Source: Hoplostethus atlanticus | Lineage: Eukaryota; Chordata; Actinopteri; Trachichthyiformes; Trachichthyidae | DNA length: 64,000 nucleotides | Assembly: GCA_034670405.1 (NCBI GenBank) | Contig: JAXDDX010000171.1 | Span: 248,001 to 312,000 of the forward strand | Direction: 5' to 3' | Part shown: positions 1,303 through 50,365 of the stretch, in pieces | Layout: each line of letters opens with the position of its first letter | How positions within the stretch are numbered: the first letter of the stretch is position 1 | Translations under genes and position numbers: made by a program | Notes under the pieces: generated by a model | What the model was told of the DNA's origin: nothing | Database searches by the model: none | The model's input: only the letters and a program-made list of their open reading frames with translations

Positions 1303-4300
1303 TCCAACCGTGGTGGTTAAGGGTGGATCTATAAGGTGTGTCCCATTGATCCTGAATGGATAGAGCTGGGCCTATCCGTTATCTAGGTCAGTGGCTCCAA
1401 AACTGGGCTCCAGGGATCCTTGAAATGGTTCCAGGGATTCCCCACCACAATGAGGAATCATTTTATTTCACTCCCTAGCACAATGAGAGTTTTTTTTATT
1501 TTTTTTTATCATGTTTCTTCCCTGTTAATTCTCATCCTACAGTATAATTGTCCAGTTTCTACTGAATCACACCCAAACAACAAAAACCTTCTCAGATGTA
1601 GGATCCTCAAACAAAATCTTATCAAATATGGGTCCGTGGGATAATTTATATGATGATATGATTCATATAATTTATATGAAAACATTTGGGAAGCTTTTAA
1701 TGCATTTAATGAATGCACAATCGGTTTAAGGTCCCTAACTCTTGCCTGTCCGTGCCAGGCCGTAACCTGAAAGAATGGCTCCAGGAACAGTTCTGCGACG
1801 AGCCTCTGGAGCAAGACGACATGCGGCTCCACAACGCAGCCTACGTAGGGGATCTGGACACCCTGAGGAACCTGCTGCAGGAGGACGGCTTCAGACGGTG
1901 AGGGAGGCCGCCGCGTAATCATGTAAGATAAAGTAACGAGAGCCAGGGAGAAAAGGTAGATTTAAAAAAAATAATAATAATTTCAACAAAAAACTAAGCA
2001 GGCTTTCCAAACCTTTCTCAACTATGACATTGTTTCTGTCTGGCTCCAGGGAGGAAGTTGTGCATAAAACCCTTTATATCTTAGACAAGTCAATGGTTTC
2101 ATAAGCAGTAACTATTTTCATACTTGGTTTTATCAGAAGAAATAGGCCCGTTATTCTGTACGCAAGATTGCCAGCTCTCATCCAAACTTTTATTTTCCTT
2201 TTTAAAGTGTAGAATAGCTTTGGACATTCAGAAGGGTGTTCATGTGCGGTTTGTGGTTTCTGTGCTCTGTGGCTTTGGTAAGCAATTTTGCTGTGTGACA
2301 GCTTTAAACACACAGACATTACATAGCGTAGGTCCTTACACATCCCTACCACAAACCAGTCCTATATCCTACATGACACGTAACATATGGTGGACACTTT
2401 TATCCCAAATCACCTCACAGTACTATGAGTGAATACATCCTTTTTAATGGATGGTCTGGTGTCTTTAATTGGTGGCCCGCTGTGGGATCAAACCATTAAC
2501 ACAGGCAGGCATTTAGACGCACAGGGAATGGACCTCTCAAGGACCTGCCATTGAGTTACACAGTGGCCAGCAGTCATTCAACCCCAATGCCACATTGGTT
2601 ACACAATGCACTCATACGTGCCCCAGCACCCACCCCCAGTCAACCCATTATTACTGGCTTATGTTTGTTCAACTCCATTCCATTTACAGCTTTTTGCTAT
2701 TTCAGTGCAAGATTATAACCTTGCTTGCGTCTTGGCCAGATGGTTACATGTGTCAAAATTCTCTGGATTAGTCATGATGTAGACAGTTGAAATATTCAGG
2801 GTGTAACATTTGGTGGGGCTTGAGTCAACTTTGCTGGAGTAATAAAAAAAAAAACAAGTGTTATTGCAAGGGTTGGCATGATGGTGGCACAAGTATGTGG
2901 TCTGACATGCTTTGGGGCCCATCCCAAAATGTTACGTTTGGTTGCTCTAGCTTTACGCGTATTAAAAACATACCTCACCATCACCTTTGTGTCACAGCCA
3001 AACGCTTCGGCATTTCAAAGGTATGTGTTTGACAGAGATTGGATCAATTTTGTGGGATAAATAGCGAAAAACAGGTTTTTTATAAATGGCGGAAACCTAT
3101 CAACCTATCAAGGCAGAAATGAAAACCAGCACAATGGAATTGTCTTGAGCCAAGGAAATTTAAGGGGAAAAAATGTGATTCTATGTTTTCAGAGGGATAA
3201 ACTCTACTATAAAGTCTGTTATCATTGCAAAAGGATTGCAAAAGGATACCCTTTTGTGTGGATTCCCACACAAAACCCTTGCAACTGCTTTGCTTTTCGA
3301 TGAAGTAAGGGACAAACACCTGTGTGACTGTGATTGGTTATTTCCTACTCTAATGCCCGGAAAAAATAAATAATGAAAAAAAAGGTTTTGCCCAAAAAAC
3401 CCCAAAAACAGTTGCGACTATCTGTGACTAAATCTGTAAAAGGGACATTATGTAGGCAGCTCAGTCATGAGATGTCAACTTTGTAGGATACATTTTTTTT
3501 TTTAAATAGCTGCTATTGCTAGGTTGGCCTGATGGTGGTGCTATGGAGTGCAACCAATTGTGGTCTTTCACACATTGGGGTCTATCCCAAATAAGTATCT
3601 GAAGGATCAAACGTTTAGGAATTTGTTTGCGCATCTTCAACGTCAACTTCATATTGTTGCACCACAGCCATGGTAATAACTGTAATCCAGGAAGTCCATA
3701 TATGCTTTGTGCAAAATTTCATCAATAGTGGATACATTTTGCGGGAGAACTAGACTTTCCTCCATTTTGAATTTTAGGCAATTGTGTGGGGGGAAAAAGG
3801 TTTGTAGTGTGTAGTTTCTAGGCCTTACGGTTCAGGAGTTATTGGCTAAAACGTAAAGTTGGTGGTTATAGGGCTACTATTTGGCCCGGTGGTGTATTTG
3901 GGGGTGATTTGAAACCTATCCACCAATTTTGATTGCTCTAGGACTTTCTCAGGTACATTGTAAGGCAGAAAAAGAGTGGAAGTGGAAGAATCCTAACCCA
4001 AATGTTGGATTCTTATCAACCAAGAAGTTACTAAACCACTAGTACATAACTTATTCCTCTTGTATTGTACTTTAAAGTAGCATAACTCCCGTCTCCTCCT
4101 TGGATACCAGGCGTATCAATGAGAAGTTGGTGTGGTGCTGCGGCTGTCTGCCCTGCACCCCTCTGAGGATCGCCGCCACGGCTGGCCATGGTGCCTGTGT
4201 GGCCTATCTGATTGCCCAGGGAGCCCAGGTAGACCTAGTTGACGTCAAAGGCCAGACGGCCCTCTACGTAGCTGTGGTCAACGGTCACCTGGACTGTGTC

Positions 4301-6425
4301 CGGATCCTCCTGGAAGCTGGGGCCGACCCTAACGGTAGCCGTCACCACCGCAGTACCCCCCTCTACCACGCTTCACGGGTGGGAAGGCTGGACATTCTAC
4401 AGGAACTCATCAGGTGAGGATTTAACTGACATAGATGGTTTGAATTGTCTTTCAAAACACATTTCTGAAAATGCAACTCAGTCAGATTGGATTTCAAGTA
4501 TTTTATTCTCAAAACATACTGAGTCTGCAGTGGTGCTTGTACAAGTACATCGACCCTCCCACTCTGACTTTCCCATCAAAGCTCATTGAAATAGTCCGAC
4601 AGCAACTCTTCCAATGTCCGGCTAATCGCCTTTCCCTCCACCCACTCAAGTCAAGCTCTCTCAAGCTGCACTGGGACAAATGCCTTTCTGTAAAACCTCA
4701 AAGTACAGGCTACAGTGAGCCACAGGACCACTGTCAATGATCACCATGTAAGCATTGCCAGCTTAATTCTGTGTAGCTGAATCAATCTTTTGCACCTTCA
4801 CAGACAAAGACATCTTACTTTGAAACACTCTCTTTGAGGAAGTATTGCATTGTTGAGTCCATGTTACTAGCTTCTTCACCCAGAGTTCTTGGACAGAAAA
4901 TGTGTCCATGGCATACTATGACATCCATTGTTGTACAGCTATGTTGTAATGGCCTCCAATTATTAAACTGTCTAAACACACTTTTAAATGAGAGTGTGGA
5001 CAGTCAGCCTTAAAGCTCTCATTTGAAAAACAAATCGGATTTCCTCCTAGCATTTTTTGCCCCCTTGATCTGATTTGTAGGAGCATTTTGGTGCTTTGGG
5101 CAATTGCATTGAACTATGAAATAATATATTTCCATTGCATATTGCCACATAAACAATTTGTCCCAAGATTTGTTTTAACTTCTTTCCCACGGCTGGAAAC
5201 TGGCAGCAGGCCTCACAGAAGAGGATGGCGCTCATGTCTTCCGTCTTTCTGCAACCAGTCCATCGTCCACCCCTCCATTGTTTAGTTTTCTTTACCATAT
5301 TGGTTGGTTTTATTTCTTGTTGAGGCAGTGGTTTGTGTGAGGTCAACATTTTCTCCTACTACTGGCTGTGTACTTCAAAAACAAATCAAACAAATCAAAC
5401 AAATCAAAAACCACTCCATTTTATGAACTTCCAATGACGTTTTGCTGACCCTGACACATACCATGTAGGAGTATGAGTGTTCTAATGTGAGGTTTCTATA
5501 CAATTAACAATACATTTTCCTCAGATGGCTTAAAGGTTAAATTGTCTTAAATTGCATTCATGATTGCCTCGCTCCAGGTTCTATGCTGACGTTGACGTGG
5601 ACCACCAGCTGGGTCCTCGGCCCCTCTTGAGCGCCCGCACCCTCAACACCCTGGTGGTGTGCCCTCTCTACATCAGTGCTGCCTACCGCCACCTCCACTG
5701 CTTCCAGTCGCTGCTCCAGGCCGGTGCTCAGCCTGACTACAACTACACAGGGCCTATTTGTCACGAGGCTCTGGCCCGCGGCCTGGCCTCCTGCCTGCTG
5801 GATGCGGTGCTGCGCCACGGATGTGAGGTGGCCTACGTCCGCCTGCTGTTGGACCACGGGGCTGACCCAAACCTGGTGCCCTGGGAGGAGTCGGGGCTGG
5901 AGGCGGCTATCCGGAGCAAGGTGGATCCAGAGGCACTCAGGGTCTATGTGGAGGCCAGGAGTGAGTTGTCCCCTTAAATATAAAGCACTGTATTTTTAAC
6001 CATTACTTGTCCAGGGAAAGGTTTTACCCAGAGCACATGATCTTTTTGAGAAATGCTTAATACTCATACAGAAACATACACTCAGATTTGGGAACTGACT
6101 AGTACAACCACAGACTACTGCTGGCCACTGGATAGCTCCGCTCTTGCAACTGGGTTTTAATTGACTTGCATAGACTTATTGACTTGGATAGAAACCTACA
6201 AGGAGAGAACTAATATATTCCCCACTCAGCACATTCTCATCTTAGCCATAACAGAATGCTGCTGTTAATGGCATCTACCTTTGCTTTTTCTTAGGATTTG
6301 CTCGTAGACTGACCCACCTGTGTCGGATCAGGATCCGCAGAGTAATGGGAAAGAATTGTCTGAGCCACATACCCTCACTACCACTACCAGAACCCATCAA
6401 GAACTTCCTTCTCCTGAAAAACTGA
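1093..6425 (+). CDS. asb1: Ankyrin repeat and SOCS box protein 1 (Asb1), five coding exons
   Basis: Coding exons are 1093-1189, 1759-1897, 4111-4413, 5578-5960 and 6295-6425. Every junction is GT-AG, phases match, and the 1053 nt encode 350 residues (human ASB1 is about 335). Ankyrin repeats are visible at roughly residues 54-78, 95-124, 128-157, 161-180, 207-236 and 256-280, with motifs such as TPLRIAATAGHG and GQTALYVAVVNGHL. The C-terminal SOCS box (about 308-350) has a BC-box region LTHLCRIRI for Elongin B/C and a Cul5 box LPLPEPIKNFL. ASB proteins present substrates to a Cullin-5/Rbx2 ubiquitin ligase in the cytoplasm. Ankyrin repeats 2-4 and the GRNLKEWL segment match mammalian ASB1 closely. 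The first 32 residues are divergent and rest on ATG position and phase. No frameshift or stop interrupts the gene. Identity as ASB1 rather than another ASB is strong; substrate specificity cannot be read. Confidence 0.95.
1759..1897 (+). CDS. asb1: asb1 exon 2
   Basis: The acceptor is CCAG|GC and the donor is ACG|GTGAGG. The exon encodes RNLKEWLQEQFCDEPLEQ and the first ankyrin repeat (MRLHNAAYVGDLDTL). This segment is a diagnostic match to ASB1. Confidence 0.93.
1898..4110 (+). other. asb1 intron 2 with old diverged repeat copies
   Basis: This is the largest asb1 intron (2.2 kb). Two stretches, about 2780-3060 and 3500-3780, share a loose pattern (a TGATGGTGG segment, then a GGGCC/GGTCTATCCCAAA-like segment, then a cluster of short shared words). 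They look like old copies of one dispersed repeat, though too diverged to align reliably by eye. Short open frames here do not splice to the gene and are not coding. Confidence 0.35.
4111..4413 (+). CDS. asb1: asb1 exon 3
   Basis: The acceptor is ACCAG|GCG and the donor is TCAG|GTGAGG. The 303 nt encode RINEKLVWCCGCLPCTPLR and ankyrin repeats 2 to 4, the best conserved part of ASB1. It joins exon 2 through a split arginine codon and exon 4 through another. Confidence 0.95.
4414..5577 (+). other. asb1 intron 3
   Basis: This 1.16-kb intron holds no recognisable gene, RNA or full mobile element. A short CAAAT(C)-type direct repeat lies near 5380-5410. Confidence 0.6.
5578..5960 (+). CDS. asb1: asb1 exon 4
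   Basis: The acceptor is CTCCAG|GTTC and the donor is AGGA|GTGAGT. The 383 nt encode FYADVDVDHQL, the VVCPLYISAAY repeat, the C-terminal ankyrin repeat with DAVLRHGCEVAYV, and KVDPEALRVYVEAR, which in human ASB1 directly precedes the SOCS box. The exon is GC-rich compared with its flanking introns. Confidence 0.94.
6005..6175 (+). repeat. dispersed repeat copy in asb1 intron 4
   Basis: This stretch shares ordered blocks with 28880-29040 and in part with 56425-56460: TCCAGGGAAAGGTTTT..., CATACAGAAACAT, CTGACTAGTACAACC and CTACTGCTGGCCACTGGA. The same order of blocks in separate places shows a dispersed family. Its class (SINE or LINE 3' part) is not settled. Confidence 0.5.
6295..6425 (+). 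CDS. asb1: asb1 exon 5 (SOCS box and stop)
   Basis: The acceptor CTTAG|GATT follows a T-rich tract. The exon completes a split arginine codon, then encodes the BC box (LTHLCRIRIRR) and Cul5 box (PSLPLPEPIKNFL), and ends with TGA at 6423-6425. The junction is supported because only this phase gives the SOCS box. Confidence 0.93.
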
Positions 6426-17749: not shown

Positions 17750-17836
17750 GCCTACCTAAGTTGAATGTACTTATTGTAAGTCGCTTTGGATAAAAGCGTC
17801 TACTAAATGACTGTAATGTAATGTAATGTAATGTAT
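17750..17836 (+). mobile_element. L2-like LINE 3' tail
   Basis: The phrase GTAAGTCGCTTTGGATAAAA followed by GCGTCTACTAAATGACTG and a (TGTAA)n array is a very common 3' terminus of teleost L2-like LINEs and the SINEs that share it. Only the tail is kept. Confidence 0.7.
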
Positions 17837-37897: not shown

Positions 37898-38515
37898 ATG
37901 GAGGATATCTTTTTTGACTTCGACCAGGATGGCACCACGGATTTCGCGTTTTGGGGCCAGATGGACCCGAACCTCCAGTTCCAGACCCAGCTGGACACCC
38001 TCCTCTTAGAATGCACGGCGGCGGCGGGCCAGCTCTCGCCCTGGTCCTCGTTCGGCTGTCAATCCGTGTTCCCGGACGCGCAGCTGACGTTCACAGACCT
38101 CGACTCGCAGTCTCCGGGACTGGGCGTGTGCGCGGAAGCGGAGAGCTCCTCGGCGGACGAACCCCTGGAGGTCGCCAAGCGCAGGGCGCGGCGGCTGGTG
38201 CCCCATCACCCGTACAAGGTGCAGCGGTACGCCGCCAACATCCGGGAGAGGAAGAGGATGCTGAGCATCAATTCCGCCTTCGAGGAGCTCCGGTGCCACG
38301 TGCCCACGTTTCCCTACGAGAAGCGGCTGTCCAAGATAGACACTCTCAGGCTGGCCATAGCCTACATAGCCCTGCTGAGGGAGATCCTCATGTCGGGCTG
38401 CGACCCCAAATCCTATGTGGACGAGTGCATGAAGAATGGCTACAAGAATCAAACTAACGCCATTTGGAACACAAGCGGTGAGCTGATAGCCTATCATCTT
38501 CAACAGCCCATATAA
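37898..38515 (+). CDS. Fer/Ptf1-family bHLH transcription factor (ferd3l-like), single exon
   Basis: Predicted nuclear bHLH regulator of 205 residues. The start is the first ATG of the open frame, in good context (A at -3, G at +4), giving [12 protein letters not shown]; the open frame further upstream has no ATG. The N-terminal 90 residues are acidic and rich in Phe, Gln and Ser, like an activation domain. A basic stretch KRRARR (94-99) precedes the bHLH (about 110-164): basic NIRERKRM with the DNA-contacting Glu-Arg, helix 1 INSAFEELR, loop [12 protein letters not shown], helix 2 [18 protein letters not shown]. By hand comparison with remembered human proteins over 52 positions, it has about 38 identities to PTF1A and 35 to FERD3L, so it belongs to the Ptf1/Fer group without being a clear orthologue of either. 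The C terminus ([10 protein letters not shown]..., [13 protein letters not shown]) has one tryptophan; PTF1A uses two C-terminal tryptophans to bind RBPJ. FERD3L in mammals acts in neural floor plate and PTF1A in pancreas and cerebellum; the role here is unknown. It lies 11.4 kb upstream of twist2 on the same strand. Confidence 0.88.
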
Positions 38516-38946: not shown

Positions 38947-39024
38947 CCTTTTGCCATTGGCTCTCTTTGGATAGCACAGTAAGCCTATATACTGTGCTAT
39001 CCAAAGAGAGCCAATGGCAAAAGG
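38947..39024. repeat. perfect 35-bp palindrome with 8-bp loop
   Basis: 38947-38981 (CCTTTTGCCATTGGCTCTCT onward) is the exact reverse complement of 38990-39024, with loop AGCCTATA. There is no mismatch in 35 pairs. No other inverted repeat, target duplication or mobile-element end surrounds it. It lies about 430 bp after the Fer-type stop codon and could be in its 3' UTR if a later poly(A) site is used. The stem is longer and more perfect than a usual microRNA precursor. Confidence 0.95.

Positions 39025-41392: not shown

Positions 41393-41435
<43 letters not shown>
41393..41435. repeat. GT microsatellite
   Basis: A (GT)n run of about twenty units, with a shorter run at 41262-41280. Confidence 0.96.
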
Positions 41436-41436
<1 letters not shown>

Positions 41437-44400
41437 TCACCCTAGTTTAGTTTACAGCTCTTATAGGCAGTGCAGATGTTGCCTTGACTCCTTCTCCATA
41501 CTGTACACCTGCTCTAAGTGCCTTGATGTAAATGTACACCAGAGACACTGGGTTATATAAGAGATAGGTGTATGTGATTGTTATCTTGAACCTAATTTGA
41601 TTTAAAAAAAAAAAATAAAAACAATGAAATGACATTTTTAACATATTTGAATTTAACCATGTTGAAATGCAAAGAGTTTGGATTTGGCTTGGACCTTTAG
41701 AAGTATTGCATAAGCCTGTTTGCCTTTTGATGGTAGCACCCCACTGATGGTAAATGCCCTGTGTAGCACCCTGGATGCTGCGTGACCCCTGTGTCCCCCT
41801 AGTGGAATTTATTGGCTAAATCTATTTACGGATTTCCTCAGGCAATTTCTGATGGGAGGCATTGTGTAGGAATCTATGGCTTTCAAGCAGTTGAGCTATA
41901 AAAAGAACTTTATTCAATACCTGTTTTGACAAGCTCTCACATTTCTGAAGTTCTGTGTATGTTTGTGATGATTCTGTTTGACAGCCTTCAGTATTTGAAG
42001 AATTCTGTTTCAAAATAAGGTTCCTACACCATTTGAAAAGCAGTGACATATCTTACAAAGTGATTGATAGCATGAAATCGAAACAAATAAAGTTACTTTT
42101 TTAATGAAAGGTACCTCGTTCACAAAATGATAACAAAGACTGTATCAACCGGATTTTAGAAATACTAAATGTATGTATTTATTTATCTATGTATTTATTT
42201 ATTAATGTAGCCAAAGGGATATCTATTTTGGAAATGAATCCTTCGTCATCCAACACCGTGCAGTTTCTCGGCATCTTGACCTATCGCAAGCAACTCTGGA
42301 ATACTTCTTGGATGAGATATGATTCAGCCAATGGAAAACTCAGAGGCCAGCATGAGTAAGATTCCTCCAGTCTGCGGACAGCATCAGGACCTTGTCCGGC
42401 TTATTTTTGCATCGAGGTTAGTTTATTGATTTAACATCCGGCAGACTTGAACTGACAAACACTGTGAGGCTTGGGAGCCCTGGGTGGCTATTCTGCCCTA
42501 GGCTGGCAGGTGTGTTTATCACGCTGGGGAAACTCTGCAGTCTGGGTCCTTTCGACTTGTAAATACAATTAGTGCATCGCATCCTGTTGGAATATTGTAG
42601 GGGTATGGGAGGAACCAAAACCAGCCCTGTCAAAAAGGTTCTCCAATATGTAAACAAAGCCGTCGGTTCTAGGGGATGGCTGGCAAAGTTTGAACATGTG
42701 GTGTTTTTACTAGATATAAATCCAATGCCACATAAAGTGACTAGACTCTTTGAGGTTGCAGGCCTGGGACAAAGAACTGTAGCTTTGGGAAACCACAGAT
42801 GTCTTTGCATAAAAATACAGGGAGCTGGACCGGAAGTTTACCAAGACTGCCTGCTGGTTTACTAGCGGCTAGGTGATTTTCCATAGACGCGGGGGGGCTA
42901 CGTGCTATATCAACTAAACAAAGCAATAGATTAAGTTGAAAATCATCTGGCAGCACTCTTCGTTACATAAGCGATCATAAGATATACACATTTCTGTAAT
43001 GTTTGCGTGCAAAATTGTGCACTCACCTCGTTCTTCAACATATTTCAGAATGGGAACTGTACGGTTAGTAGTTTGCTTATATCAAGTAATCTGTAATGTA
43101 CTGGAATAGGAGGAAGTGACGTCAACTTTGACTCCCTGTTAAGCGATTACATGAACATCGCTTGATCCCGTGTCATGCTACATTGACTACAGTAAATTGA
43201 GACCCAGACTGTCCATTGGGGTCAGTCTTGGGCATGACAGGCCCCCCAAAATTCACCAAATGGAAACTTGGCAGCTGCCTTCTTAACCTGTAGAGTTCAA
43301 TAATTTTTGTGTTCCCCCAGTGACTCTACATATAGAATTTACTGTATTGTTGTACAGGCTATTGCAGTAAAATGGTTTTCAGATTTTAGATATTCATTAT
43401 GACCATGTTAGGGTCTATTTAAGTCCAGTAAAGAGATGGTGATGAGATAAATATATACAACATCAGCATTTACATGCTACTTTCTATCAGATGATGAAAA
43501 TAATACTGAAAACATTTTTGGCATTTTTTTTTAATCGAGCTTTTTGATTTCTTCTAAAGGAAGTTGACTTAATCTTAACAGTCACTACCAAAATAAATGT
43601 CTCAGTAGTGACAAGATGGAACATTCTTTTATTTCTTATAACAAACATATAGGTTGAGCACACAGTTAGCGTTTTAAGAAAAGTAAATCAAAAAAGTAAA
43701 TCAAATCAAAAGTAATCAATATGAGATTGAGAGTGTAGGAAATAGGCTGGTATCTAATATAATAGTGAGTGAGACCTTTTCATATCATAGGAATTCACAG
43801 TTAGCGTTAGGTCATCGTGAAAAAATGCAGAGTTGAAGGAATTTAAAAACCTCCAAAAAAAAAAGCTGACTCCCCAGAAGACTCGCACCCAGATCTCGTC
43901 TCCATGGCAACCCAGTGTGTTGGCACTTTAATAGCTGTGAAACTCCAGTTAAATAGCTCACCTGCTTTTCTCATTACAGCTCCTCTTCACAGCACCGCAC
44001 TTTTAGCCTCAGAGCTAATAACTCAGATCAGAGTGTGTGGAGGCTAAAATATGGTGTCGTCTTTACAACGTGCCCCCCCCCCCGCCCTGCTCAAGGGCCC
44101 TGAATGGTGGGGGGCCCCATTTGAAGCATTCTCAGACGAGTACTAGGGCATTCAATAATTTCCTTCTTGGATTGGAATCATAGCCCTCCTGCTGGCCAGA
44201 GCAAACAGAGGAATAAACAGTGTTGGTTTTAAAGACTAAGAGGGCTATCGGGGTTAGCAGTAAAACATGCAGCTTAGCCATACTAATCAAGATTCCTAGT
44301 TCAAGGTGCATGGTTTTCCATGGAGTGTAATTTGATGAATTGATGCCGTGATCCGACCCACGTGGCTGAGAGATTTAAGGGCTTGCACAAAAGAGCTAAG

Positions 44401-46045: not shown

Positions 46046-46624
46046 GCTTCGCAACCAAGGGAGTTTCAATTTCACACTAACTTTGAATGTCCATGCAGTC
46101 CACACGCACGCACGTTTTTATTACGAACTGAGTCACAGTTTCACTGCGATCGCTTAGTTTCTTGTTGTAATTGTTGGTGATGGTAGTGGTATGTGTGTTT
46201 TTTTAGCACTTCAAACCTCCAAAATCATCTGACTATGTAGTTAAATGAACAATGAATTCCAATAAGTGCCAGTAACAGATTACTTTTTTAAATCTGATTA
46301 CTTGCGATTCTGTTACCCGCCACCCATTCTTCCCCGGGCCCCGCTTACATGGAGCGGTGCAGATACATAAATGGCTGTTCTAATGGAAGCAGTGGGGGCC
46401 AGTAGTAGCTTTGAAAGTGATTGCACTGGTGGTAATAGACACTGCAGGCTGAGCAATGAGAACCAGCTGGGCCAGGTTTTCTGCTCAACATATTTGGTCC
46501 ATCTTGAAACACCCTCTGCTCTTCCTCACACACACACACACACATGAAACGGCAGATGCAGATACACTGATGCACATAATCATCAAGCCATAATGTATAC
46601 ATGAGTGAAAAGGCGTGCATGTAT

Positions 46625-46625
<1 letters not shown>

Positions 46626-46691
<66 letters not shown>
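46626..46691. repeat. CA microsatellite (about 33 units)
   Basis: One of the two longest dinucleotide runs in the window. A shorter CA run lies at 46527-46544. Confidence 0.98.
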
Positions 46692-46693
<2 letters not shown>

Positions 46694-47079
46694 CCTTTAG
46701 ATCCACTTGCCAAGATCATTCGGGGTGAGCCTCACAAGTGATGCAGGGGGGGGGGTGGGGGTGAAGTCAAAGGTAACCAATCCTGGCACGCAGATGGACA
46801 GTAAAATTCCACTCATCACAGCCTCCGACAAATCATCTCTTCCACATCGTCTCCTCGCACATCCATAACGCCCTCTGTCAGACCAGAGGCCTTGGCGAAC
46901 GATCAAGCCCACATCCGTGCGTTTGGCTGCACGATGAAAACATTACAGATGCTGTACAAGGTGGGCCATCCCTTCTCCTTTCTTGGACTATCTCTAGCTC
47001 TTTTTCTTTTTTTCTTTCACTCGTTCGACACCTCTCTCTCTCTCTTACCGATCTTCTCTGTTTTATGAGGCTGGTGTGA

Positions 47080-47352: not shown

Positions 47353-47817
47353 CCCTCCCTCTCTTTCAGGGGTGTTCACTTGAGCCAAAGGGACCCAGAA
47401 TGCCTCTCTCTCCTCCCATAGGATTCATTTCCGGACATCCAGAGGGGTTGAAAGAACAGGTAGTTCCACAACTGGCCCTTAAGGACGCTACTGTCTAGAT
47501 ATTGCAATTTCCACATCAGTTTATTTAGAACATTCATGCTAAGGATCATGGGTAATCATACTTCCATAGGAGCAGTGCAAACAGATTTTAGAAATATTTT
47601 TTATAATGTCCACATAGTCACATATATTCAAACATAAGCTTTATAGGGAAAGTTAGCATTATTTTCACACTGTCTTGCAATGGAACGTGGCAAGCTGTCA
47701 TCGTCTGCTGCTTGCTTCTTTGAATGAAAACCTGCTTATCGTTACCCAGAGCACATACAGTGGGTGGAAAAGACCTGGCCGGGGGCCCCTCTCTCGCTCT
47801 CTTTTTTTTCTTCCCAT

Positions 47818-47818
<1 letters not shown>

Positions 47819-47885
<67 letters not shown>
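47819..47885. repeat. GT microsatellite (about 33 units)
   Basis: A perfect GT run, of the same length as the CA run 1.1 kb upstream but in opposite orientation, so the two could pair as an inverted repeat. Confidence 0.98.
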
Positions 47886-47886
<1 letters not shown>

Positions 47887-49570
47887 AGCCGACCTCACAG
47901 GCGCTGTGCAGGATCAGCCTCTCCACAAGTCAGAACCCTTCTTTTTCTCCCCTGGGGCATAGAGGCCTCCTGCAACTGAGACAGAGAGCAGAAGGTCAGG
48001 GGGCATAATCAGGGAAAGTGTGTGTGTTTCCTTTTTGCACACCAGCGTGCATGCCTTGTGTCGCGCTTGTGTGCATTACATGTATGCATACTTGAACGTT
48101 GCATTACATTATAGGATTGCACGTGTAAAACATTACTTCTTTTCTTTTTTTTTTAAAACAAGGTCTATGAATTAGACTAGAAAAATGTAACCACGCTTCG
48201 ACCTGCGCCGAGACAAGCCAGGGTCTGAATTAAGACTCCTGGCAGCGGGTAAAAGTAGTGTGACAGTCGCCATTACCACTGGAACCCCGAAACACACAGC
48301 AGACCAGGCTCCAATGTGCCAACAGGCGAAGGGGATCTTTCAAGGGAAAGCCGGTCTCGATACCAAGTGAGCGCTCTTGGGTTCAAACAATGTGCCACTT
48401 TGAACATTTTCGGGAGGCACTCTGTTCCACCCCGTTTACAGCAACACACACAACCTGGGCATATGCGTTCAAGACGCCATAGATTGTTTTCAGATACTGA
48501 AAGTGCAAACGAATGCAGTGGTTTAGAATAGAATACAGGATTAGTGATTAACTCAGACTAAGTTTTGCAGCCAGACTAAATTTCTTAGAGCAAAATTTGG
48601 GAATACCCGATGACGTTGAATACTGCAACAAAATAAAGCCCATCTTAACAAGTCATTTAGTCTAATGGTGAATTGTAAATTCTTGTTTTCCTTCTGCCAA
48701 TCCACTTAGGTCCAGTTTCACCTATTTTTAGAAAAAAAATGACAACTACCAAAAATGGATAAGGTGGATAAATTGAGACACCTGTGTGCGGGTGAAAACA
48801 CGCGTGGCAGACGGCGTGGTTTGCGCCGCTGACAAAAACGCGCGGAGTGCCGGTCCGCGCTGGAAGGTATCCGCAGAAACCGGAGAGCTCCTCGGTTAGT
48901 TTAAGCCTCCTTCCTGTTTGACTTCCACATTATAGGAGCTGTGAGAGCGGCGCAGACTCCTTTTTTGATTCGATTAAGGATCAAGCGTATGCGTTTCCCT
49001 CCGACTCCCCAGGCTTCTGCGGCTAAACGAACCTGTGCGCGCAATGCTCTCCTCTGTAGCGCGCGCGCACACGCACACGCACACACACACACACACACAG
49101 AGGCTGTGATTGGACAGATGGATGGTTGCATGTAAAACTCCCTATGCAGAGTGTTTTGTGAGTGCAATGTGTGGACTGGACACTAACAACAAACTGATTC
49201 ATTTTATGTATTTGTATTCTGTCAGTCATAATATCAAAATTAAATCATTTAGACTGACAATATGGCCTTGTAAGCAAGGATTATGAAGAAAATAAGAAGC
49301 AATTATTTAATAACATTGCAATGTACTGTTCATTATTTGGTTAATTGTGATTCCACTTATTATTTTACTCATAGAAATACCTTAAACTGTAGTAAGCCAT
49401 TACAAAGAAACGGGCCGAACGTTTGGTATGAATGTCGCTTCAATAGGAAACATAAAACAGTGCAACAATTTGCCATTGCGTTTGATTGCAAAAAAGTGCC
49501 TTGTTTCAGTCACATCCCGTTAGACAGATGAAGTGTAACCCAAAACTGGTCCCTCCTGCTTATTAGTGGA

Positions 49571-49900: not shown

Positions 49901-50365
49901 ATGGAAGAGGGCTCCGTTTCTCCGGTCTCCCCTGTGGATAGTCTGGTGACCAGCGAGGAGGAGCTGGACAGGCAGCAGAAGCGCTTCGGGAGGAAGAGGA
50001 GACACAGTAAAAAATCCAGCGAGGACAGCGGCAAAAAGCCGAGCCCGAGCAGCGCGCAGTCGTACGAGGAGCTGCAGAACCAGCGGGTGCTGGCCAACGT
50101 CCGCGAGCGGCAGCGGACCCAGTCGCTCAACGAGGCCTTCTCGTCTTTGCGCAAAATCATCCCCACGCTGCCGTCGGATAAACTCAGCAAGATCCAGACG
50201 CTGAAGCTCGCCTCCAGATACATTGACTTTCTGTACCAGGTGCTGCAGAGCGACGAGATGGACAACAAGATGTCCAGCTGCAGCTACGTCGCGCACGAGA
50301 GACTCAGTTACGCGTTCTCCGTGTGGAGGATGGAGGGCGCTTGGTCTATGTCAGCATCTCACTAG
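49901..50365 (+). CDS. twist2: Twist-related protein 2 (Twist2/Dermo1)
   Basis: The protein is a bHLH transcription factor of mesenchyme, dermis and bone precursors that dimerises with E proteins and binds CANNTG sites. It has 154 residues and starts [15 protein letters not shown], nearly as in mammalian TWIST2 (160 residues) and lacking the Gly-rich region of TWIST1. A basic stretch RKRR (31-34) is a likely nuclear signal. The bHLH spans about 61-112 ([15 protein letters not shown], then [20 protein letters not shown]). The C-terminal Twist (WR) box at 125-154, ending [12 protein letters not shown], is intact. The shortness comes from a reduced linker ([14 protein letters not shown]). The ATG has G at -3 and +4. 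Naming as twist2 rests on the N terminus and the asb1 synteny; a fish twist3 paralogue is the main alternative and is less likely. Confidence 0.95.

Follow-up and report, generated by a model that had tools for sequence, protein, structure and literature searches.

A third Ptf/Fer-type bHLH gene, probably a vertebrate Fer2, beside twist2 in Hoplostethus atlanticus

Introduction

The closest described systems to the gene reported here are insect Fer2 (48-related-2), FERD3L/NATO3 and PTF1A (Fer1). Fly Fer2 acts in dopaminergic neurons (PMC4207665, PMC8931002), and Ciona fer2 (KH.L116.39) is given as the label of a dopaminergic-cell gene (PMC7596717), the same gene being listed as Ptf1a-r/Ptfb in coronet cells (PMC7693978). 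Planthopper Fer1 and Fer2 were assigned to the PTFa and PTFb families, respectively (PMC5126786), and hlh-13 of C. elegans was treated as the single PTF1a/NATO3 orthologue (PMC11703107).

Surveys of bHLH genes provide family counts for a number of animals. PTFa is represented by one gene in each species of Table 2 of PMC2862960, in which PTFb counts two genes in Drosophila, three in lancelet, two in zebrafish, and one each in limpet, chicken, rat and mouse; the second zebrafish PTFb gene enters here as a survey count. One PTFa and one PTFb gene were reported for Xenopus (PMC3842043), and three PTFb genes for amphioxus vs. one for sea urchin (PMC1828162).

Studies of fly Fer2 in dopaminergic neurons and in Parkinson models take mouse Nato3/FERD3L or PTF1A as the mammalian counterpart. 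In one such study, a BLAST search with FER2 yielded four mammalian relatives and Nato3 was argued to be a functional homologue, the evidence being called puzzling since data from other groups support Fer3 as the Nato3 homologue (PMC8931002). Neither "vertebrate Fer2" nor "zebrafish Fer2" was found as a phrase in the open literature, where a search for fer2 in teleosts gave only an unrelated listing and the peptide strings of the gene described below were not found; surveys outside the open literature, among them one of zebrafish bHLH genes and that of Gyoja and Satoh, may name the gene.

The present analysis concerns a stretch of 64,000 nucleotides from Hoplostethus atlanticus (hereafter the window), i.e., positions 248001–312000 of contig C171 in a 633-Mb genome of 1161 contigs.

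Results and Discussion

An intact bHLH gene distinct from ptf1a and ferd3l

Reading of the window for ORFs and protein domains located the following coding sequence and its parts:

37898..38515, + strand: putative Fer2-type bHLH coding sequence of 205 aa, apparently single-exon (ORF and Pfam; single copy in the genome search)
38222..38377, + strand: bHLH domain, residues 109–160 (Pfam PF00010; alignment with the TWIST1, NEUROD1 and TAL1 structures)
38396..38512, + strand: C-terminal tail beyond the bHLH (tblastn, query including the tail)

The ORF is intact from its ATG to its TAA, and its product carries one Pfam domain, HLH (E 9.8e-20; 70.6 bits vs. a cut-off of 20.7). Since an ATG ORF of this length or longer also arose in 3 of 2000 mononucleotide shuffles of the surrounding 2.6 kb, it is this HLH match, and not ORF length, that forms the main evidence for the gene, and by the same match a chance ORF was ruled out. 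The GC contents of 0.563, 0.413 and 0.816 at the first, second and third codon positions, in a window with an overall GC content of 0.437, fit a coding sequence. Relatives of solved structure (nine distinct sequences at E ≤ 0.001) were TWIST1, NEUROD1, TAL1, ASCL1, MYF5 and MYOD, with the match confined to the bHLH; when aligned with these DNA-binding proteins, the basic region ANIRERKRM was seen to keep N..RER.R. Searches of prokaryote and virus sequence collections returned no animal relatives of the protein.

A genome-wide protein search gave 47 matches, among which the gene at twist2 occurred once (100%). Its best paralogue in the genome was ptf1a on contig C79 (63% over 63 aa, E 1.6e-19), and ferd3l was recovered as a separate gene on contig C6, where the match remained partial because the reading frame is interrupted. 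The sequence at 37898–38515 is a real, intact group A bHLH gene and, as separate ptf1a and ferd3l genes exist beside it, the third Ptf/Fer member of this genome. That this fish might have no other ferd3l or ptf1a, an outcome raised by the original prediction itself, is ruled out by the presence of both genes elsewhere.

The ferd3l gene on C6 reads QRQAANVRERKRMYSLNEAF and then continues past the frame break, which is due to a single surplus T in a TTTT run. This extra T, situated inside the bHLH (G000:C6:1923196-1923667, – strand; locus L029), is either a sequencing error or a real loss. If the break is real, then of the Fer genes found in this fish other than ptf1a, the one at twist2 alone would be intact.

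Distance to ferd3l and affinity to Fer2

Over 56 residues of the bHLH, the gene at twist2 was 70% identical to ptf1a and 68% identical to ferd3l, the latter two being 62% identical to each other. The original prediction had also read the gene as the genome-duplication sister of FERD3L, i.e., as a copy made together with the Twist1/Twist2 block that has since diverged, which we now regard as unlikely. This reading draws on gene order, which mirrors a ferd3l-twist1-hdac9 arrangement that we take to be the human one, and on a tree of 27 bHLH proteins from this genome, in which the gene, ptf1a and ferd3l formed a clade (support 98/94) and the gene joined ferd3l first within it (89/22). Because of the latter values, no branching order is shown inside the Ptf/Fer clade. 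Moreover, identity to ferd3l is no higher than to ptf1a, whereas 23 of the 25 same-family bHLH pairs in the genome were 80–100% identical, in a yardstick for which families were labelled by the analysis itself and some pairs are younger, stemming from the teleost duplication. Same-family identities amounted to 87–96% for twist (five genes, compared pairwise), 80–95% for tal, 88–96% for scx/tcf15-like, 84% for hand, 86% for neurod, 100% for nhlh and 80% for two atoh genes, and the two lowest pairs (64 and 69%) both included the atonal-like gene L002, which may represent a separate old family. Pairs among twist1, twist2 and twist3 should themselves date from the vertebrate duplications.

The gene at twist2 and ferd3l are alike in belonging to the Ptf/Fer clade, in preceding a twist gene on the same strand, in sharing KRM..VPTF.YEKRLS, and in showing no intron in the coding stretch, in as far as ferd3l of this fish is concerned. 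In contrast, the gene at twist2 reads S-I-N instead of S-L-N, has a longer tail, and does not match the ferd3l-type signature, which is present in the ferd3l gene on C6 and is common to the fish, human and fly proteins (the latter two by approximate reference sequences).

A second tree (15 rows, 60 columns) was built with approximate human and invertebrate reference sequences, including FERD3L, Fer3, Fer2 and HLH-13. In the best tree, the gene formed a clade with the reference Fer2 and the reference C. elegans HLH-13, at a support of 58/55. Grouping with vertebrate ferd3l to the exclusion of fly Fer3 was rejected both with the Fer2 and HLH-13 rows (p-AU 3e-6) and without them (p-AU 0.0125), which speaks against the sister relationship to FERD3L. 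What speaks for that relationship is the grouping with the whole Fer3 family, which was not rejected with these two reference rows (p-AU 0.457) and was part of the best tree (80/75) without them. Grouping with the whole Fer1/Ptf1a family was not rejected either (p-AU 0.166 with and 0.266 without the two rows). The firm outcome of these comparisons is a negative one, in that a sister relationship to ferd3l of vertebrate age is rejected.

Similarity to insect Fer2 appears to extend over both the bHLH and the tail pattern, as judged by an approximate insect reference sequence. Identity reached 91% over 56 aa (85% over 60 aa), a value that may be flattered because the reference letters were set down once the window was known. 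The gene differs from insect Fer2 in its vertebrate host, and the clade uniting it with the reference Fer2 is a weak one. Like insect Fer2 and Ciona fer2, it would be a PTFb-type gene distinct from Ptf1a; the Ciona gene, compared by label only, shows the family to be present in chordates if its label in PMC7596717 is right.

Fer2 is a best-fitting rather than a proven label, and Fer2 orthology is likely. Based on the approximate reference sequences and on the bHLH surveys, we propose that the gene is quite probably a vertebrate Fer2 (48-related-2) member, distinct from ptf1a and ferd3l, which was kept beside twist2 and is missing from mammals. The closing remark of the original prediction, that the gene might belong to a distinct ancient subfamily, is supported by these data.

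The twist2 neighborhood and other twist loci

The surroundings of the gene comprised the following neighbors:

4076..6425, + strand: ankyrin and SOCS-box exons of an asb1-type gene, the upstream neighbor (Pfam)
49901..50365, + strand: twist2, an HLH protein of 154 aa, located 11.4 kb downstream of the bHLH gene (ORF and Pfam)
C171:328282-338498, – strand: HDAC exons of hdac4, converging on twist2
C171:366754-368178, – strand: Gln-domain exons of hdac4

The order on C171 is therefore asb1, fer and twist2 on one strand, with hdac4 converging on them from the other, and the nearest matched HDAC exon lies ca. 30 kb beyond twist2. This bears out the noted position of a Fer/Ptf-type gene upstream of twist2 on the same strand, and hdac4, which had merely been expected beyond twist2, was found there by its HDAC and Gln-domain exons. 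The name asb1 follows from what we take to be the human 2q37 order, in which asb1, twist2 and hdac4 presumably share this arrangement without a fer gene. A further exon candidate of the asb1-type gene (1713–1901) gave no Pfam match.

Regarding the HDAC identity, the Gln stretch on C171 matched HDAC4 chains only among PDB entries (three distinct sequences, best E 3.1e-15). The catalytic stretch matched HDAC4 chains over nearly the whole query (147.4 bits, vs. 122.5 bits for HDAC7); HDAC6 chains ranked higher (up to 165.2 bits) because two-domain HDAC6 chains sum two stretches.

Five twist genes were read in the genome, for which the labels 1a, 1b, 3a and 3b are our own. A converging pair of Twist and class IIa-like HDAC was present at four of the five loci (C171, C16, C23 and C40), and at the fifth, i.e., twist1b on C6 (– strand), ferd3l was located 2.6 kb upstream on the same strand, with no HDAC match there in the HDAC searches of the genome. 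The duplication of a Twist-Hdac block, as suggested by the original prediction, is hereby sustained. On C16, a Gln exon (+ strand) lies 40 kb from twist1a (– strand) and converges on it; it matched HDAC4 chains more weakly (2.5e-11) with no HDAC9 chain among the matches, presumably belongs to an HDAC9-like gene, and is joined by no catalytic exon on C16 among the HDAC matches of the genome.

The twist3-like genes on C23 (+ strand) and C40 (– strand) have HDAC catalytic exons 11–14 kb beyond, again converging. The C23 stretch resembled class IIa (132.9 bits for HDAC4, 121.9 bits for HDAC7, and up to 173.2 bits for two-domain HDAC6), and the C40 exon was classed by motif alone. These regions (G000:C23:4106687-4124247 and G000:C40:1208965-1224527) look like a third paralogous block with a convergent Twist-HDAC pair. 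Gln-domain HDACs occurred on four contigs (C16, C81, C171 and C210), of which C81 carries a second hdac4-like locus as judged by its letters; neither C81 nor C210 gave a match to twist, Fer or any other bHLH, which departs from an entirely regular block pattern.

A Fer gene lies upstream of twist at two of the five loci read. No second Fer copy was found upstream of the twist3-like genes or of twist1a in the stretches searched (L031, L032, L079 and L080), and no Fer relic within 9.6–9.9 kb upstream of each twist3-like gene. These empty stretches, together with a position known from one genome, lend some weight to the possibility that an ancient Ptf/Fer gene, of Fer2 type or other, moved beside twist2 later and in fishes only, its ferd3l-like order being coincidental. 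We consider this quite unlikely, since both non-Ptf1a Fer genes precede a twist gene on the same strand, at 2.6 and 11.4 kb, and two independent moves to such positions are improbable.

For the Fer2 reading, we envisage a vertebrate block in which, before duplication, both Fer2 and Fer3 would have adjoined Twist and a class IIa Hdac would have converged on them. After duplication, Fer3 (ferd3l) would have been retained in the Twist1-Hdac9 block, and Fer2 in that of Twist2 and Hdac4. Because no Fer relic was seen upstream of the twist3-like genes, this ancestral cluster is not directly witnessed.

The C-terminal tail and ptf1a

The tail of the protein follows the pattern DP..YV..C...WNTS..L, which resembles what we take to be the tails of invertebrate Fer2 proteins. 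It has no counterpart in ptf1a or ferd3l of this fish, both tblastn matches stopping at the end of the bHLH. In PTF1A, the tail recruits a cofactor, with HSLSW and VWTPEDPR contacting RBPJ. By analogy, and speculatively, the Fer2-type tail may recruit a cofactor as well.

PTF1A shares with the gene at twist2 its Ptf/Fer clade membership and the common bHLH stretch. It differs in its neighborhood, as no twist match was present on C79, and in its downstream part, as the gene at twist2 shows no sign of an intron after the bHLH. A ptf1a retrocopy was unsupported, for the tail differs from that of ptf1a with its intron removed. A divergent ptf1a duplicate, which would agree with ptf1a being the best paralogue and with a grouping with vertebrate Ptf1a alone that was only marginal (p-AU 0.077) when the reference Fer2 and HLH-13 were left out, is very improbable given that this grouping was rejected when they were included (p-AU 0.0009), that the tail contains neither HSLSW nor VWTPEDPR, both of which were read downstream in the ptf1a locus of this fish, and that over 56 aa the gene is 70% identical to an approximate human PTF1A reference, whereas fish ptf1a reaches 98%.

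Possible function and meaning of a Fer2 in fishes

Group A bHLH proteins dimerize with an E-protein and recognize CANNTG sites. A Fer2-type protein would accordingly be predicted to pair with an E-protein (tcf3/4/12) and to contact CANNTG through ANIRERKRM. Its most likely role may be to act as a selector for a small group of neurons, the first candidates being dopaminergic or other monoaminergic ones, a setting that we infer from fly Fer2 and Ciona fer2.

Taking the Fer2 assignment further, we lean towards a scenario in which vertebrates inherited Fer2 besides Fer1 and Fer3, fishes keep it by twist2, and the Twist1 and Twist2 blocks kept different members of the cluster. In this scenario, Fer2 would have been lost in mammals and, by the survey counts, in chicken and Xenopus, and Nato3, the mouse counterpart used for fly Fer2, would be a paralogue. 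A fish with Fer1-, Fer2- and Fer3-type genes would then explain the Nato3 puzzle, mammals simply being without Fer2, and would be the vertebrate in which to test a dopaminergic role of Fer2. It would also make the two regions sister blocks with different retained neighbors, in which a false duplicate pair would be read from gene order alone.

Other elements in the window

Within the 1.9 kb upstream of the bHLH gene, 17 E-boxes and three RBPJ-like words were present, as raw counts. At the gathering threshold, Rfam yielded a single match in the window, a UnaL2 LINE 3′ element (17763–17816, + strand).

Ca. 430 bases past the stop codon lies a hairpin (38947–39024, + strand) whose 35-bp stem encloses an 8-base loop, with an MFE of –66.4 kcal/mol (z of –13.5 vs. 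shuffles). It matched no Rfam family, and a DNA search of the genome, which skips very common words, gave two matches, i.e., its own site on both strands, and none elsewhere. Its features do not suggest a common MITE; it could have arisen by a recent inverted duplication, encode the precursor of a hairpin RNA, or reflect a fold-back in the assembly.

Finally, long TG/CA microsatellites lie between the bHLH gene and twist2, at 41394–41440, 46605–46701 and 47804–47906, the latter two of which form long complementary arms.
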